Assembly (NCBI RefSeq): GCF_014645235.1
Contig: NZ_BMLM01000002.1
Location: forward strand, 1 to 64,000
Reading direction: 5' to 3'
Source: Agrococcus terreus
GTDB lineage: Bacteria > Actinomycetota > Actinomycetes > Actinomycetales > Microbacteriaceae
DNA length: 64,000 nt
Positions within the stretch are counted from its first letter, which is position 1. The number at the start of each line of letters is the position of its first letter. Shown here one piece after another: positions 51,423-58,602 of the stretch. Position numbers and translations under genes: made by a program. The notes below the pieces were generated by a model. The model saw only the letters and a list, made by a program, of their open reading frames with translations. It was not told the origin of the DNA and did no database searches.

Positions 51423-52937
51423 TCAGCGGGCCTCGGGCGCGGGCGCCTCGTCGGGCAGCGGGATCACGGGGATCGCCTGCGTCACCGGCTGCAGGCCCGA
51501 CAGGCGCGCCGGCTGCAGCAGCTTCTCGACCCGTTCGCGGTCCATCAGGCCCGCCTCCACGACGAGGTCGGCGATCGACTTGTGGCTCGTGAGCGCCTCG
51601 TGCGCGAGCTGCGCGGATGCCGCGTAGCCGATGTACGGCGTGAGGGCCGTGACGACGCCGACCGAGGTGCCGACCATGTCGCCCAGCCGGTCGCGGTTCG
51701 CCTCGATCCCGTCGACGCAGTTGATGCGCAGCGTCAGGCAGGCCTGCGTCATCCAGTGGAGGCTCTGCAGGATCTGGTGGGCGATGACCGGCTCGAACGC
51801 GTTCAGCTGCAGCTGCCCCGCCTCGGCGGCGGCCGTGACGGTCGCATCGGAGCCGATGACGGCGAACGCCACCTGGTTCACGACCTCCGGGATCACCGGG
51901 TTGACCTTGCCGGGCATGATCGACGAGCCGGCCTGCTTGGGCGGCAGCGTGATCTCGCCCAGGCCCGCCTGCGGGCCGGACGAGAGCAGGCGCAGGTCGT
52001 TGCAGATCTTCGAGAGCTTCGCGGCGCAGCGCTTGAGCGTGCCCGAGAGCGTCATGAACACGCCCGTGTCGCTCGTGGCCTCGATGAGGTCGGCGGCCGC
52101 GACGATCGGGAGGCCCGTGAGGTCGGCGAGGTGGCGGCAGGCGGCCTCCGCGTAGCGCGGGTCGGCCGTGATGCCGGTGCCGATCGCCGTGGCGCCGAGG
52201 TTGACCTCCGACAGCCACGCGATGGTCTCCTCGAGCCGGTCGCGGTCCTCCCGCAGCGTCACGGCGAACCCGTGGAACTCCTGCCCGAGCGTCATCGGCA
52301 CGGCATCCTGCAGCTGCGTGCGGCCGACCTTGAGCACGTCGCGGAACTCCCCCGCCTTCGCGTCGAACGCGTCGGTGAGGCGCTGCAGCTCGTCGAGCAG
52401 CCGGCGGAGCGTGAACGCCATCGCGACCTTGATCGAGGTCGGGTAGGTGTCGTTCGTCGACTGCGAGCGGTTGACGTCGTCGATGGGGCTGAAGTGCTGG
52501 TAGTCGCCCTTCTGGTGGCCGAGCTCGACGAGGCACGCGTTCGCGATGACCTCGTTCGTGTTCATGTTCGTCGAGGTGCCCGCGCCGCCCTGGATGACGC
52601 CGACCTTGAACTGGTCGTGCAGCTCGCCGCCGCGGATGCGCCGGCAGACGCGGTCGATGAGGTCGGCCTTCTCGGGGTCGAGCACGCCGATCTCGCGGTT
52701 GGCGCGCGCGCACGCCTGCTTCACGACCGCGAGCGCGGTGACGAGGTCGGAGTAGACGGAGATGGAGCGGCCCGTGATGGGGAAGTTGATGAGGGCGCGC
52801 TCGGTGTGGATGCCCCAGTAGGCGTCGCGCGGCACCGGCAGCTCGCCCAGCGAGTCGCGCTCGAGGCGCGTCGGGCCCGAGGAGGTGTGCTCGCCCTGCG
52901 GCGCCGGGTCGAGCTTGTACGTGGGCGTGTCGGTCAT
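51423..52937 (-). CDS. aspA: Aspartate ammonia-lyase
   Basis: Converts aspartate to fumarate and ammonia. The protein is 504 residues. The aspartase/fumarase signature is GSSIMPGKVNP, with GGAGTSTNMNTNEVIAN and QSTNDTYPTS typical of AspA. An N-terminal extension of about 30 residues and a C-terminal extension of about 20 exceed the usual 470. Fumarase C cannot be excluded on motifs alone. A hairpin separates it from kynU, so it is probably not part of the kyn operon. Confidence 0.9.
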   Translation of the reverse strand: MTDTPTYKLDPAPQGEHTSSGPTRLERDSLGELPVPRDAYWGIHTERALINFPITGRSISVYSDLVTALAVVKQACARANREIGVLDPEKADLIDRVCRRIRGGELHDQFKVGVIQGGAGTSTNMNTNEVIANACLVELGHQKGDYQHFSPIDDVNRSQSTNDTYPTSIKVAMAFTLRRLLDELQRLTDAFDAKAGEFRDVLKVGRTQLQDAVPMTLGQEFHGFAVTLREDRDRLEETIAWLSEVNLGATAIGTGITADPRYAEAACRHLADLTGLPIVAAADLIEATSDTGVFMTLSGTLKRCAAKLSKICNDLRLLSSGPQAGLGEITLPPKQAGSSIMPGKVNPVIPEVVNQVAFAVIGSDATVTAAAEAGQLQLNAFEPVIAHQILQSLHWMTQACLTLRINCVDGIEANRDRLGDMVGTSVGVVTALTPYIGYAASAQLAHEALTSHKSIADLVVEAGLMDRERVEKLLQPARLSGLQPVTQAIPVIPLPDEAPAPEAR

Positions 52938-53032
52938 CTCGGCTCCATCGCCTCGTGCCTCGCGGTCGGGATCGTGCCCGCGGGACTGTCGGTGCATCGA
53001 ACGCGGGTGTCGCCCGCGCCCACGAGCCTAGT

Positions 53033-53068: not shown

Positions 53069-54313
53069 TCATGCCGCGGACCTGCGGAGCTCCTCGCCGA
53101 TCGCCTCGACGCCCACGAGCACCTCGGCGAAGGTCGTCGAGAGCGGCGACAGGCCGATCCGGATGCCGTCGGGCGCGCGGAAGTCGGGGATGACGCCGCG
53201 CTCCCACAGCCGCGCCGTCACGTCGCGGAAGGCGGGGTGCGCGACCGTCAGGTGGCTGCCGCGGTGCGGGCCCGCCGGCGGGCTCACGAGCCTGGCGCCG
53301 AGCGGCAGCACGTGCTGGGCGAGCGCCGCCTCGGCGAAGCCCGTGAGGGCGACCGACTTCTCGTGCGCGGCGCTCACGCCGACCCGCTCGAGCAGCTCGA
53401 CCATGGCCTCGAGCGCCACGGTCGCGAGCACCGGCGGCGTGCCGGAGGCGAAGCGGCGGATGCCCGCCGCGGGCTCGTAGCGCGCCCCCATCGCGAAGAC
53501 GTCGGCGGCGCCCATCCAGCCCTGGATGGGCTGCGCGAGCGCGCCCTGGTGCTCGGCGCGCACGTAGGCGAACGCGGGGCTGCCGGGGCCGCCGTTGAGG
53601 TACTTGTAGGTGCAGCCGACCGCGAGGTCGACGCCCCAGGCGTCGAGCTCCGTGGGGATGACGCCCGCGGAGTGGCAGAGGTCCCACAGCACGAGCGCGC
53701 CCGCGGCGTGCGCGGCGCGGGTGATGCCCGGCACGTCGGCGACGAAGCCCGAGCGGTAGGCGACGTGGCACAGCAGCACGAGCGCCGTGCGCTCCGAGAG
53801 CGCCGCCCCGACCTGCTCGAGCGTCGCGCCCGCGGCGCGGTCGACCTCGAGCCACCGCACGGTGCAGCCGCGCTCGGCAGCGATGCCCTGCACGACGAAG
53901 CGGTCGGTGGGGAACGAGTCGTCCTCGATGACGATCTCGGTGCGGGCCGGGTCGGCGGCGATCGCCGCGTCGACGGCGGCGCGCACGAGCTTGTAGAGCA
54001 GCACGGTGGTCGAGTCGCCGACGAGCGCCTGGCCCGGTGCCGCGCCGACGAGCGCGCCGAGCCGATCGCCGAGCTCGAACGGCCGCGCCATCCACTGCTC
54101 GTCCCAGCCGCGGATGAGGCGGGTGCCCCAGTCGTGGCCGACGAAGCCGGCGAAGCGCTCCGGGAGGCTCGCGAGCGGCCGGCCGAGCGAGTTGCCGTCG
54201 AGGTACGAGACGACGTCGCCCTCGCGCACGAAGGCTGCCGCGTGCTCGGCGAGCGGGTCGGCGGCGTCGAGCGCGGCGGCGCGCGAGCGGAGGTCCTGCG
54301 CGGTGTCGGTCAT
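53069..54313 (-). CDS. kynU: Kynureninase
   Basis: PLP enzyme splitting kynurenine into anthranilate and alanine, 414 residues. The PLP lysine is K237 in GCTYKYLNGGPGS, a kynureninase-specific context; DLCHSAGVIP supplies the PLP-binding Asp and His. N-terminal YLDGNSLGRPL is also typical. ATG overlaps the amidohydrolase stop (ATGA). Third gene of kynA-amidohydrolase-kynU. Confidence 0.95.
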   Translation of the reverse strand: MTDTAQDLRSRAAALDAADPLAEHAAAFVREGDVVSYLDGNSLGRPLASLPERFAGFVGHDWGTRLIRGWDEQWMARPFELGDRLGALVGAAPGQALVGDSTTVLLYKLVRAAVDAAIAADPARTEIVIEDDSFPTDRFVVQGIAAERGCTVRWLEVDRAAGATLEQVGAALSERTALVLLCHVAYRSGFVADVPGITRAAHAAGALVLWDLCHSAGVIPTELDAWGVDLAVGCTYKYLNGGPGSPAFAYVRAEHQGALAQPIQGWMGAADVFAMGARYEPAAGIRRFASGTPPVLATVALEAMVELLERVGVSAAHEKSVALTGFAEAALAQHVLPLGARLVSPPAGPHRGSHLTVAHPAFRDVTARLWERGVIPDFRAPDGIRIGLSPLSTTFAEVLVGVEAIGEELRRSAA

Positions 54314-55392
54314 CGGGGCTCCTCGGTCGTGGCGGCGGCGGTGGCGTCGGTCGGGGCGAGGTCGTCGGCTCGGACGGCGCGGGCCTCGTGGAGGGCGGCG
54401 AGCACCGCCTCGTCGTCGGCGACGTCGGGCGGCAGCGCCGTGGCGGTGCGCGCGGGCCAGGGCAGCAGCAGCTCGAGGCCGGAGCCGGTGAGCGCGTCGA
54501 CGGTGCCGCTCGCACCGAGGCCGGCGGCGAGCAGCGCGGCGACCTCGTCGGCCTCCACGCCCAGCCGGCTCGTGCCGTTGCCGAGGTCGGTGCCGTGCAG
54601 CACGGCCCCGCCTGCGCGGGCGAAGCGCGCGACGTTGTCGACGGCGGTCGCGAGCGCCGCGTCGTCGCCGTCGCGGACGTGCATCGAGAGCGTCGTGACC
54701 CACGCGGTGCGCTCGGCGGCGCGGGTGACGAGCGCGTCGTCGAGCCGCTCCGTCCAGGGCGCGTGCGCGAGGATCCGGACCCCGTGGTCGATCGCCCGCT
54801 CGGCCTGCCCCTCCCCCTGCACGTGCGCGGCCACGGGGCGCCCCGCGACGCGCGCAGCGGCGACGATCGCGACGAGCGCGAGGTCGTCGAGCACGGGCCC
54901 GGCGTCGGCGTTGAGCGCGACCTTGATCGCCGAGGCGCCCGCGGCGACCTGGGCGGCGACGGCCGCGGCGGCCTCCTGCGCGCCGGCGACCTCGTGCACG
55001 GCCTCCGCCGGCGCCCAGCCGCTGCGGCTCGGGTAGCCGCCGGGGGCGGTGAGGAGCGCGCCTGCCCAGCGGACGTCGAGCGCCGGGGCCGCCGCGGCGT
55101 GCGCGGCCGCGATGCCGGGGAGCGCCGCGGGAACCCAGCCGAGGTCGAGCGCGCGCCCGATGGCGCCGGCAGCAGGCTCGGCGAGGCCGAGGTGCACGTG
55201 CGCGTCGGTGAGCGGCGGCAGGAGGGCGATCGGGAGGCGCTCGAGCGCGGCGCGGTCGGCCTCGGGCGCGAGCCGCAGGCCGGCATCCGAGCCGAGCCCC
55301 ACGACGACGTCCTCGTGCCACGCGCCGCCGATGCGGGCGCGCGCGACGCGGACGACGCGCTCCACGCCCTCCCGGTCCGTGGCCCCGCCCAT
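54310..55392 (-). CDS. Amidohydrolase-superfamily protein, candidate N-formylkynurenine formamidase
   Basis: 360-residue metal-dependent hydrolase. The binuclear ligand set looks complete: HxH at 65/67 (DAHVHLG), K157 (SAIKVAL) as possible carboxylated lysine, H190 (AAHVQGEG), H210 (ILAHAPW) and D269 (HGTDLG). It lies 5 bp after kynA and overlaps kynU by 4 bp. Converting N-formylkynurenine to kynurenine is the one step missing between its two neighbours, yet it resembles neither the KynB cyclase family nor the alpha/beta-hydrolase formamidases. The role is inferred from position; it could instead act on another amide. Confidence 0.7.
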   Translation of the reverse strand: MGGATDREGVERVVRVARARIGGAWHEDVVVGLGSDAGLRLAPEADRAALERLPIALLPPLTDAHVHLGLAEPAAGAIGRALDLGWVPAALPGIAAAHAAAAPALDVRWAGALLTAPGGYPSRSGWAPAEAVHEVAGAQEAAAAVAAQVAAGASAIKVALNADAGPVLDDLALVAIVAAARVAGRPVAAHVQGEGQAERAIDHGVRILAHAPWTERLDDALVTRAAERTAWVTTLSMHVRDGDDAALATAVDNVARFARAGGAVLHGTDLGNGTSRLGVEADEVAALLAAGLGASGTVDALTGSGLELLLPWPARTATALPPDVADDEAVLAALHEARAVRADDLAPTDATAAATTEEPR

Positions 55393-55397
55393 CCGGA

Positions 55398-56282
55398 TCA
55401 GGCGCCGATCCGGGTGCGGACGGCGTACAGCTCGGGGAAGAACGTGAGGTCGAGCGCGCGGCGCAGGAAGTCGGTGCCGCTCGAGCCGCCCGTGCCGGTC
55501 TTCATCCCGATCGTGCGGGTGACGGTGCGCAGGTGCCGGAAGCGCCACAGCTGGAAGTTGTCCTCGAGGTCGACGAGCTCCTCGCACGCCTCGTAGGCGC
55601 GCCAGTCCTCGTCGCCCTGCCGGGCCCCGGCACCGGGCTCGCCCGCGCGCTCGTAGATCGCCGTGAAGACCTCGACGAGCGGCTCGTGGAAGACGTGGGC
55701 CTTCCGCACGTCGCGCTCGAGGACCTCGGCGGGCACCGGGTGGCCGCGGCGCGCGAGGAGGCGCAGGAACTCGTCGTAGAGGCTGGGCCGCTCGAGCTCG
55801 GCCGCGAGCGCCGCGTGGTCGTCGGGGCTCGACTCGAAGACCTTCAGCATCCGCTCGTGCTTGTTGCCGAGCGCGAACTCCACCTGCCGGTACTGCGCCG
55901 ACTGGAATCCGGAGGCGTTCGCGAGCGCGCCGCGGAACTGCGCGTACTCGGTGGGCGTGAGGGTGGCGAGCACCGACCACTGCTGCGTCAGCACCTCCTG
56001 GATGTGCTTGACGCGGGCGATGCGCTTCAGCGCCGATCCGAGGTCGTCGGCGACCAGGAGGCGGCGGGCGTCGTCGAGCTCGTGGAGCACGAGCTTGAGC
56101 CAGAGCTCGGTGGTCTGGTGCTGGATGATGAACAGCAGCTCGTCGTGGTGCTCGGGGCTGCTGCGCGGGTGCTGCGACTGGAGCAGCGTCTCGAGCCCCA
56201 GGTACGAGCCGTACGTCATCCGCTCGCGCAGGTCGGTGACGATCGTCGCCTCGATCTCGCGCGTGTTGTCCTCGACCGCCAT
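55398..56282 (-). CDS. kynA: Tryptophan 2,3-dioxygenase
   Basis: Haem enzyme that opens the tryptophan ring to N-formylkynurenine, 294 residues. The haem ligand is H250 in WRFRHLRTVTRTIG, the substrate-carboxylate and amine loop TGTGGSSGT follows, and N-terminal TYGSYLGLETLL and IIQHQTTELWLKL are family blocks. A GGGGAG ribosome site lies six bases before ATG; TAGCGT (56311-56306) is a likely -10. First gene of the kyn operon. Confidence 0.96.
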   Translation of the reverse strand: MAVEDNTREIEATIVTDLRERMTYGSYLGLETLLQSQHPRSSPEHHDELLFIIQHQTTELWLKLVLHELDDARRLLVADDLGSALKRIARVKHIQEVLTQQWSVLATLTPTEYAQFRGALANASGFQSAQYRQVEFALGNKHERMLKVFESSPDDHAALAAELERPSLYDEFLRLLARRGHPVPAEVLERDVRKAHVFHEPLVEVFTAIYERAGEPGAGARQGDEDWRAYEACEELVDLEDNFQLWRFRHLRTVTRTIGMKTGTGGSSGTDFLRRALDLTFFPELYAVRTRIGA

Positions 56283-56358: not shown

Positions 56359-57204
56359 TCAGCCGCGCCGGGCGAGGAGGGCCGTCGCGCCGATCGCGTC
56401 GTCCTCGTGCACCGCGATGCCCTCCAGGCCCGCGGCGGCGAGGATGCGCGCGGCCTCCGCGAGCTGCGGCGGCGCGACCTCGGTGACGACGACGCCCCCG
56501 GGCGCGAGCCGCGCGGCGATCTGCGGGGCGAGGGCGCGCAGCGGCTCGAGGCCGTCGGCGCCGCCGTCGAGCGCGAGGGCCGGCTCGTGCTCGCGCGCGT
56601 CGCGCGGCAGGTGCGCGAGCTCGGCCGTCGGCACGTACGGGAGGTTCGCGGCGATCGCGTCGAAGCGGGCGTCGGCGGGCAGCGCCGACAGGTCGGCGGC
56701 CTCGAGCACGAGCACGCCCGGGAGGTTGGCGCGCGCGTTGGCGGCCGCGCGCGCATCCGCGTCGATCGCCGTCACGCGGGTGCCGGGTGCGCGGTGCGCC
56801 GCGAGCGCCGCGATCGCGCCCGTGCCGCAGCCGAGGTCGAGCAGCCGCGCACCCGCGCCGCGGGCCCGCAGCGCGTCGGCGACGAGGCCCGCGAGGAGCG
56901 TCGTGCGGCGGCGCGGCACGAAGACGCCCGGGTGGACGAGGATGCGCAGCTCGGCGAAAGCGGCACTGCCCACGATCGCTTCGATCGGCTCGCCCGCGAT
57001 CCGCCGCGCGACCATCGCGTCGAGCGCCGCTTCGTCGTCGGCCGCGTCATCGCCGGGCGCGTCGTGGTCGGCCGCGCGGCGCAGCTCGGCGAGCTCCTCC
57101 TCGGCGAAGGCGCTCCCGCCGCGGCGCAGGCGCTCGACGCGCGCGGCGTCGCGCGCATCCGGCCGCTCGTGCTCGCCGGTCGCGCCGCCCTCCACCACGA
57201 TCAT
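56359..57204 (-). CDS. PrmC/HemK-related methyltransferase
   Basis: 281-residue SAM methyltransferase related to the release-factor glutamine methyltransferase PrmC. Motif I LLDLGCGTGAIAALAA and the catalytic loop ANLPYVPT (NLPY where PrmC has NPPY) match the PrmC-related subfamily. The N-terminal helical domain is shorter and acidic. True PrmC is normally next to prfA; this one is not, so another protein substrate is possible. Confidence 0.82.
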   Translation of the reverse strand: MIVVEGGATGEHERPDARDAARVERLRRGGSAFAEEELAELRRAADHDAPGDDAADDEAALDAMVARRIAGEPIEAIVGSAAFAELRILVHPGVFVPRRRTTLLAGLVADALRARGAGARLLDLGCGTGAIAALAAHRAPGTRVTAIDADARAAANARANLPGVLVLEAADLSALPADARFDAIAANLPYVPTAELAHLPRDAREHEPALALDGGADGLEPLRALAPQIAARLAPGGVVVTEVAPPQLAEAARILAAAGLEGIAVHEDDAIGATALLARRG

Positions 57205-57291
57205 CGGCCTCCGTCCCCCGCTCCGCCGCCCGTGCCTGACGGCCTGGGCCTGCCGACTTGGGCCTCCCGGCGCGCGCGTCGACGCCGACGA

Positions 57292-57297
57292 TAGCCT
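57292..57297 (+). promoter_or_regulatory. Leaderless -10 element of the M20 gene
   Basis: TAGCCT, six bases before ATG at 57304. Confidence 0.55.
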
Positions 57298-57303
57298 GCG
57301 CGC

Positions 57304-58602
57304 ATGCCGCGCATCGACGCCTCCGCCCTCGACCACCTCGTGGCGCTCGTGCAGGTGCCGACCGAGGCGCCCGAGCAGCTGCCGGTGTTCCGCGCGGCGC
57401 TGCGCGAGCGCTTCCCGCGGCTGTTCGCGGCGCTCGAGGTCGAGGAGGTCGGCGGCACGATCCTCGCCCGCTGGGCCGGCCGCGGCGACGGCGCGCCGGC
57501 GCTGCTCATGGCGCACCAGGACGTCGTGCCGGCGCCCGCCGAGGGCTGGACGCACCCGCCCTACTCCGGGCACCGCGACGGCACGCACGTGTGGGGCCGC
57601 GGCACGCTCGACGACAAGGGCTCGCTCGTGGGCATCTGCGTCGCCGTCGAGGCGCTGCTCGCCGAGGGCTTCGCGCCCGAGCGCGACGTGTGGCTGCTGT
57701 TCGGGCACGACGAGGAGACGATGGGCTCGGGCGCGGCCGCCGCGATCGGCGTGCTCGCCGAGCGCGGCGTGCGGCCCGCGTGGGCGCTCGACGAGGGCGG
57801 CGCGATCATCGAGCCGCCCGTGGCCGGGGTCGCGCGCGACGTGGCGGTCGTGGGCGTCGCCGAGAAGGGCTTCGCGAACGTGCGGCTGCGGGTCGCGCAG
57901 GTGGGCGGCCATGCATCGACGCCGCCGCGGCTGCCGGCGACCTCGCGGCTCGCGCGCGCCGTCGGCCGGCTCGGCCGCGCGCGCTTCCCCCGCTCGCTGC
58001 CCGCCCCGACGATCCGGATGCTCGAGCTGCTCGGCGCCGAGGCGCGCGGTCCGCAGGGCGCGGTGCTGCGCCGCGTGCGCACCGCCAGACCGCTCGTCGA
58101 GCGGATCCTCGCCCGCGGCGACGAGACGCGCGCGATGCTCTCGACCACGGCGGTCGTGACGCAGCTGTCAGGCGCGGCCGCGCCGAACGCGCTCGCCGAG
58201 GAGGCCGTCGCAGTCGCGAACGTGCGGATCGCCGTGGGCGAGGACGTCCCCGCGACCCTCGCGCGCATCCGCCGCGCGATCGCCGACCCGGCCGTCGAGG
58301 TCTCGCTGCTGCACGGCCACGGGCCGAGCCCCGTCAGCCCGTCCGCGGGCGTCGGCTGGACCGACGTCGAGGCGGCGATCGGGCGCCTGCGGCCCGACGT
58401 GCTCACCGTGCCGTACGTGATGCTCGGCGGGAGCGACGGCCGGCACGCGCACCGCATCACCGACCGCGTCTACCGCTTCGCGCCGTTCGCGATGACGCGC
58501 GAGGAGCGGCTCGCGCTGCACGCGCGCGACGAGCGGATCCGCGAGGACACCTGGCTCGACGGCTGCCGCTGGTACGCCGACCTGCTCGAGCGGAGCTGCT
58601 GA
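57304..58602 (+). CDS. M20-family zinc peptidase (carboxypeptidase/deacylase type)
   Basis: 432 residues. Metal and catalytic residues fit M20: H71 (LLMAHQDVVP), D103 bridging (GRGTLDDKG), E137/E138 (FGHDEETMG), and a C-terminal His (SDGRHAHRITD). A lid domain lies between about 190 and 310. No signal peptide, so probably a cytoplasmic dipeptidase or N-acyl amino acid deacylase; substrate unknown. Confidence 0.9.
   Translation: MPRIDASALDHLVALVQVPTEAPEQLPVFRAALRERFPRLFAALEVEEVGGTILARWAGRGDGAPALLMAHQDVVPAPAEGWTHPPYSGHRDGTHVWGRGTLDDKGSLVGICVAVEALLAEGFAPERDVWLLFGHDEETMGSGAAAAIGVLAERGVRPAWALDEGGAIIEPPVAGVARDVAVVGVAEKGFANVRLRVAQVGGHASTPPRLPATSRLARAVGRLGRARFPRSLPAPTIRMLELLGAEARGPQGAVLRRVRTARPLVERILARGDETRAMLSTTAVVTQLSGAAAPNALAEEAVAVANVRIAVGEDVPATLARIRRAIADPAVEVSLLHGHGPSPVSPSAGVGWTDVEAAIGRLRPDVLTVPYVMLGGSDGRHAHRITDRVYRFAPFAMTREERLALHARDERIREDTWLDGCRWYADLLERSC

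Follow-up and report, generated by a model that had tools for sequence, protein, structure and literature searches.

The first 64,000 nucleotides of contig NZ_BMLM01000002.1 of Agrococcus terreus (Microbacteriaceae; assembly GCF_014645235.1), referred to here as the window, contain an operon for the breakdown of tryptophan via kynurenine. The genes encoding tryptophan 2,3-dioxygenase (TDO, KynA) and kynureninase (KynU) flank a gene for a putative amidohydrolase, for which a function as kynurenine formamidase is proposed. In the order of reading, the three genes are:

55398..56282, minus strand: kynA, tryptophan 2,3-dioxygenase, 294 amino acids (TIGR03036, 374 bits; PF03301, 212 bits)
54310..55392, minus strand: amidohydrolase, proposed kynurenine formamidase, 360 amino acids (context, predicted fold and the metal ligands H65, H67, K157, H190, H210 and D269)
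53069..54313, minus strand: kynU, kynureninase, 414 amino acids (TIGR01814, 205 bits; KYNU_C, 78 bits)

Five nucleotides separate the stop codon of kynA from the start of the amidohydrolase gene, whose own stop codon shares a 4-nt overlap (ATGA) with the start of kynU; the coordinates, the strand and both spacings, which had been reported in a first-pass annotation of this DNA, were all borne out when the window was read again. Judged by sequence, the names KynA and KynU correspond to full-length matches which lie somewhat under the curated NCBIfam equivalog cut-offs (390.7 bits for TIGR03036 and 246.4 for TIGR01814) and pass those of Pfam (34.9 for PF03301 and 27 for KYNU_C). The window's kynA is 82-87% identical to that of nine Agrococcus loci. 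A scan for promoters and terminators found no signal.

The best explanation for the gene between kynA and kynU is probably that it encodes a kynurenine formamidase (EC 3.5.1.9), a function proposed here from genomic context. KynA would open the indole ring of tryptophan to give N-formyl-L-kynurenine, the amidohydrolase would cleave the formanilide bond, thereby releasing formate and L-kynurenine, and KynU would split kynurenine into anthranilate and alanine. The protein is likely to represent a third formamidase family, which is homologous neither to KynB nor to the AFMID type. This had been predicted in the first-pass annotation, and the comparison of genomes supports it through the conserved coupling of the genes, an AFMID-like hydrolase that replaces the amidohydrolase in relatives without it, carriers in which no KynB-family protein is found and a gene cluster of Nocardioides jensenii.

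The conservation of the arrangement was followed across 199 sampled genomes from the window's family. TDO matches are present in 69 of these, 57 of which have an orthologous-type kynA (TIGR03036 above 260 bits, plus a split gene in genome G106) and 12 a divergent one; a match to the amidohydrolase is present in 59 genomes and exceeds 50 bits in 57. With neighbours defined as genes within 3.5 kb on the same strand, the amidohydrolase gene adjoins kynA in 48 of the 57 genomes with an orthologous-type kynA, and kynU is present too in 43 of these 48. In a 49th carrier (G170), the contig ends inside kynA, and the last 37 residues of KynA are encoded beside the amidohydrolase gene. The 49 carriers span 23 genera, and the association of the two genes has a Fisher odds ratio of about 103 (p about 1.6e-29, with kinship ignored). 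Amidohydrolase matches below 50 bits (G007 and G029, and second copies in G025 and G079) were dropped before counting, as were alpha/beta-hydrolase matches short of 50 bits and kynU matches of less than about 245 bits together with some fragments; G141 (a partial match of 55 bits) and G041 (an in-frame stop) are both included as carriers. Per genome, only the first 10 or 13 candidates were scored, so that some absences may be misses.

Relatives of the amidohydrolase are encoded in 434 stretches of genome_contigs, and the locus counts refer to the best 80 of these, taken with their flanks. On the same strand as the amidohydrolase gene, 55 loci hold both kynA and kynU, 8 kynA only, 13 kynU only and 4 neither, which means that at least one of the two genes accompanies it in 76 of the 80 loci and that the coupling described in the first-pass annotation exceeds chance. 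Matched segments lie at most 635 nt apart. The genera represented include Agrococcus, Leifsonia, Frigoribacterium, Cryobacterium, Microbacterium and Nesterenkonia as well as Oerskovia, Cellulosimicrobium, Nocardia, Rhodococcus, Saccharopolyspora and Nocardioides; the loci partly share genomes with the family sample (L146/G035 and L147/G041), and L128 and L130 are one assembly. Of the junctions measured, 35 of 52 with kynA and 50 of 59 with kynU have an in-frame start that creates a 4-nt overlap, by a start-choosing rule that leans to this position and with which another rule agrees on most loci; 11 of the 80 loci, which have an internal stop or in which no start was found, were excluded from this measurement, and alignment A2 leaves out 9 further loci. 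Across a set of 80 loci that hold all three genes, the protein distances of the amidohydrolase correlate with those of KynA (Mantel r 0.69) and KynU (r 0.75), values that none of 999 permutations reached; an operon that is passed on as one unit would give such a correlation. The three genes also occur in the order kynA, amidohydrolase, kynU on a megaplasmid of Embleya sp. NBC_00888 (L193:6994-10051), in a stretch without annotated features.

The genomes of the family that have an orthologous-type kynA and no amidohydrolase number eight, and in seven of them an AFMID-like alpha/beta hydrolase scores above 50 bits; its gene adjoins kynA in five (G026, G093, G155, G116 and G066) and lies away from it in two (G009, in two pieces, and G138). 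No hydrolase of this type above 50 bits is found in any of the 49 carriers, with at most 13 candidates per genome scored, and the mutual exclusion has a Fisher p of about 3e-8 (kinship ignored). Both states occur within genus g75: G075 and G190 have the amidohydrolase, and G138 has kynA-kynU without it, its hydrolase match (61 bits) being located elsewhere. The AFMID-like hydrolases inspected carry the motif HGGxW, which we take to be a formamidase signature, and the Drosophila kynurenine formamidase 4e11 is the second-best solved structure for their profile (E 7e-13). Members of the same family follow kynA-kynU in all three inspected genomes of one large-genome genus. Among 16 loci inspected, four (L177-L179 and L185) hold an AFMID-like gene within the stretch, eleven hold neither type, and one (L186) holds an amidohydrolase remnant. 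Such an alternation of amidohydrolase and AFMID-like hydrolase would be expected if two unrelated enzymes perform the same task. The remnant belongs to Saccharopolyspora elongata and is located between kynA and kynU (L186:4869-5301); a full-length amidohydrolase gene is found beside a second kynU of this species (L151:4860-7158).

The position of the gene next to kynU would also fit another order of reactions, in which KynU takes N-formylkynurenine directly and the amidohydrolase deformylates the resulting N-formylanthranilate one step later. The amidohydrolase gene overlaps kynU in most loci, and the 13 loci that hold kynU without kynA point in the same direction. Slow action of kynureninase on N-formylkynurenine is known from older literature; among the literature matches listed, there is no report of it for a bacterial enzyme. 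In Nocardioides jensenii (L102:4839-10060), however, the amidohydrolase gene is followed by a kynU of another type (35% identical; 424 bits, above the cut-off), a kynurenine 3-monooxygenase gene (333 bits to 6lkd) and a gene for 2-hydroxymuconic semialdehyde dehydrogenase (788 bits, above the cut-off). Kynurenine 3-monooxygenase acts on free kynurenine; deformylation must thus precede KynU in this cluster, which speaks against a role of the amidohydrolase on N-formylanthranilate. Genomes without the amidohydrolase carry an AFMID-like enzyme instead, which likewise disfavours this order of reactions, and we regard it as unlikely. The genome of N. jensenii has TDO matches elsewhere too, one of them near an AFMID-like gene, so the two types of hydrolase are not strictly exclusive outside the window's family. 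With somewhat less assurance than the function itself, the comparisons suggest a third, independently evolved formamidase family with a predicted binuclear metal site, which would be present in many Actinomycetota, would have been swapped repeatedly with the AFMID type and would serve the route from tryptophan to anthranilate and, in N. jensenii, one through the monooxygenase.

The protein itself passes no NCBIfam or Pfam cut-off. As a single sequence, it reaches 17 bits against Amidohydro_1 (cut-off 25), and PF01979 is matched at E 0.001 by 10 of the 26 aligned family members; its placement in the superfamily rests on the family profile and the predicted fold. The structure prediction (predicted local distance difference test, pLDDT, 92.7; predicted template modelling score, pTM, 0.90) has its best fold matches at Z about 28-30, with a root-mean-square deviation (rmsd) of 3.1-3.7 and an identity of 17-23%. 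These include the Arg carboxypeptidase 3be7 (Z 30.1, rmsd 3.3, 322 aligned residues), Cc2672 (3mtw; Z 29.8, rmsd 3.4, 319 aligned), the Xaa-Pro dipeptidase 2qs8 (Z 29.3, rmsd 3.3, 318 aligned) and ochratoxinase (4c60; Z 29.1, rmsd 3.1, 317 aligned), these four at 17-20% identity, where matches less than 1 apart in Z count as tied. The match to the barrel amidohydrolases covers residues 9-345 of the model. In the alignment with solved amidohydrolases, including the wild-type sequence of 8ihq, the HxH pair, Lys, His, His and Asp correspond to each other, the HxH pair falling in a separate weak stretch. The six metal ligands named in the first-pass annotation are the correct residues, and they are invariant in 26 of 26 sequences from the family Microbacteriaceae and in 61 of 61 wider sequences, at a mean column identity of 35-41% in both alignments. 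The modelled barrel fold and the HxH/Lys/His/His/Asp site together indicate membership of the amidohydrolase superfamily.

Other assignments of the protein were considered and rejected. It has no match to the KynB families TIGR03035 and PF04199 at E up to 1, and its predicted fold differs from that of KynB. An enzyme of the AFMID type would be recognised by a match to an alpha/beta-hydrolase family, an alpha/beta-hydrolase fold, HGGxW and a Ser-Asp-His triad; no alpha/beta-hydrolase match was obtained at E up to 1, and the predicted fold is that of a barrel amidohydrolase. The Xaa-Pro dipeptidase equivalog NF051886 is matched with 25.3 bits against a cut-off of 500.

The substrate, the metals and the chemistry are inferred here, the course of the reaction from the predicted fold and from what is general in the superfamily. 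The (beta/alpha)8 barrel would bind two metal ions via the HxH motif, two histidines, the aspartate and a carboxylated Lys157; a hydroxide bridging the metals would attack the formyl carbon, and Asp269 would hand a proton to the leaving aniline nitrogen. Since the fold matches are named metal-dependent amidases, the hydrolysis of a formanilide that bears a free amino acid would be chemically close to the work of this fold. Candidates for residues that bind the carboxylate and the aryl group are the conserved GGYP loop (118-121), W126, H238, N253, the GNG motif (271-273) and E283.

Several observations weigh against a formamidase function of the amidohydrolase, the first of which concern the genome of the window. 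It has three Abhydrolase_3 matches, one of them with 201 bits, and it encodes a single PF04199 protein of 225 amino acids with the motif HTGTHxDxPxH (C2:522520-523152), which is located on the same contig about 0.47 Mb from the operon. The first-pass annotation had implied that a known formamidase is lacking, and a search for homologues of KynB and AFMID confirmed this in part: the genome has no match of KynB grade and, among the 13 of its 14 candidates that were scored, none to the operon-linked AFMID-like hydrolase at E 0.001, while the distant PF04199 protein and the Abhydrolase_3 proteins do exist. It could thus be speculated that the true formamidase is the PF04199 protein or a generic esterase and that the amidohydrolase takes another amide, such as a kynurenine that is N-acylated or bound to a peptide, or some side product. 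PF04199 is present in 126 of the 199 family genomes, and the solved structures nearest to the amidohydrolase are those of enzymes cleaving amino-acid amides, both of which would agree with this idea. However, the PF04199 protein reaches only 60 bits against the KynB model TIGR03035 (cut-off 223), 1r61 ranks above the KynB structures as its closest solved relative, and a gene for a cytosine/purine-type permease (PF02133, 126 bits) is located just upstream (L001:1315-3355). The loci of G174, G079 and G119, the three most similar of six compared, have retained the pair of permease and PF04199 gene, with a permease identity of 58-83%. Sequence and neighbourhood suggest a partner of the permease and not a KynB; a side activity of the protein is possible. 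Furthermore, 16 of the 49 carriers give no PF04199 match; these 16 belong to 10 genera and include G049 of the window's own genus. The TIGR03035 cut-off is passed in none of 40 genomes; it is also passed in none of 14 control genomes, 7 of which match below the cut-off, and thus had no positive control. An assignment of the formamidase step to the PF04199 protein or an esterase appears improbable. In relatives, the PF02133/PF04199 pair was seen at L172, L174 and L176.

That the amidohydrolase is a non-catalytic regulator of the kynurenine pathway or a relic, kept by its coupling only, is highly improbable in view of the six metal ligands that are invariant in both alignments at 35-41% identity.

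The further points against a formamidase function come from the distribution of the genes. In eight genomes of the family, the amidohydrolase occurs although TDO is not matched; its gene adjoins kynU in five and neither kyn gene in three; perhaps, as a speculation, the genomes with amidohydrolase and kynU use formylkynurenine from outside. Indoleamine 2,3-dioxygenase was not found in 16 genomes searched, but no control matched either. Of 12 genomes to which selected loci belong, 8 have a TDO match, and none was found in those of L119, L145, L148 and L150. The 12 family genomes with a divergent kynA have neither the amidohydrolase nor an AFMID-like alpha/beta hydrolase above 50 bits, and a PF04199 match is absent in 9 of them. 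In the two small-genome members that were inspected, kynU is located just before the divergent kynA (L040:2685-4840 and L041:2657-4824), and no recognisable formamidase was found. Apparently, kynA can live without a recognisable formamidase; the lack of a recognised formamidase alone does not, therefore, prove that a neighbouring gene fills the gap. G084 has an orthologous-type kynA with none of the three candidate formamidase types beside it and no AFMID-like match above 50 bits. In a sample of 386 genomes of the phylum, the amidohydrolase profile is matched in 59 and TDO in 83 (both at E 1e-20); read by eye, 35 genomes hold both, and the genes are adjacent in five, all of the window's family. 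The 54 matching genomes outside the family, many of whose assemblies are fragmented, include none in which the match lies on a contig with a TDO match. As adjacency in this sample is confined to the window's family, the operon is not seen among the more distant homologues. Of the four among the best 80 loci with neither gene on the same strand, three lack kyn genes altogether and the fourth, L148, has just a distant kynureninase-like gene on the opposite strand (30% identity). Finally, the substrate specificity of the amidohydrolase is not readable from the modelled fold, in which no substrate-specific residue is picked out.

Some further loci were noted. In genus g36, which has no TDO match, a gene for an S-adenosylmethionine-dependent methyltransferase precedes the amidohydrolase-kynU pair (L044:2736-5896 and L045:3208-6373). 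Distant homologues of the amidohydrolase follow uvrB in metagenome-derived families (L157:2704-7052 and L159:2989-7255), and some are convergent to a gene for a kynureninase-like aminotransferase (L155:3427-5636; 96 bits in this locus, the one scanned, below the cut-off). In the window, the C-terminal half of the open reading frame upstream of kynA (56362-57912) encodes a methyltransferase domain (PF13649, PF05175), and the true start of this frame probably lies downstream of the listed one. About 70 nt past the kynU stop codon, a Lyase_1/fumarase C-type protein is encoded on the same strand (51426-52997), which has no evident link to tryptophan.

According to the accessible part of one report (PMC4243253), the formamidase step is already served by unrelated proteins in eukaryotes and bacteria, and two classes of kynurenine formamidase are described there, KynB and the eukaryote-type alpha/beta hydrolase. 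If the function proposed for the amidohydrolase is true, a gap would be closed in the metabolic reconstructions of Microbacteriaceae and other actinobacteria, and the genes would provide a clean case of non-orthologous replacement within one operon. Both the reaction and the superfamily are known; their pairing is not established.

The Xaa-Pro dipeptidase, the Arg carboxypeptidase Cc2672 and ochratoxinase share the metal ligands of the window protein and are its best profile and fold matches; however, they are named for the cleavage of peptide or ochratoxin amides and are longer (403-438 amino acids in the PDB), and we know of no tie of amidohydrolases of these types to tryptophan catabolism. 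KynB (PF04199/TIGR03035) resembles the window protein in the proposed reaction, in metal-dependent hydrolysis and in its position in kyn operons, but belongs to another fold and family, and its PDB chains comprise 209-215 amino acids. In the accessible text of PMC4243253, KynB is described as a zinc enzyme with a binuclear site, and its sequences are said to have no match among known amidases or amidohydrolases. The AFMID type has the proposed reaction in common with the window protein, and AFMID-like genes adjoin kynA in relatives without the amidohydrolase; in contrast, AFMID is a metal-free serine hydrolase (PMC4243253, accessible part) and is unrelated in sequence and fold. CbxE, an amidohydrolase of caboxamycin biosynthesis, is assigned to a condensation step in the available portion of its description (PMC5481532). 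Among the open-access literature matches listed, as far as their accessible text goes, no experimentally tested kynurenine formamidase of the amidohydrolase type was found, and the proposal for MymD is the only one that places an amidohydrolase there. An amidohydrolase at the formamidase step was already proposed in 2018 for MymD/MyeD of mycemycin biosynthesis, which would deformylate (chloro-)N-formylkynurenine between TDO and kynureninase (PMC5867642). In the accessible part of that report, this role was proposed from the genomic context and from a myeD deletion that abolished the production of mycemycin A and B, and no assay of the protein is described there. MymD has 513 amino acids and the window protein 360, and the two are likened here by their description, not by their sequence.

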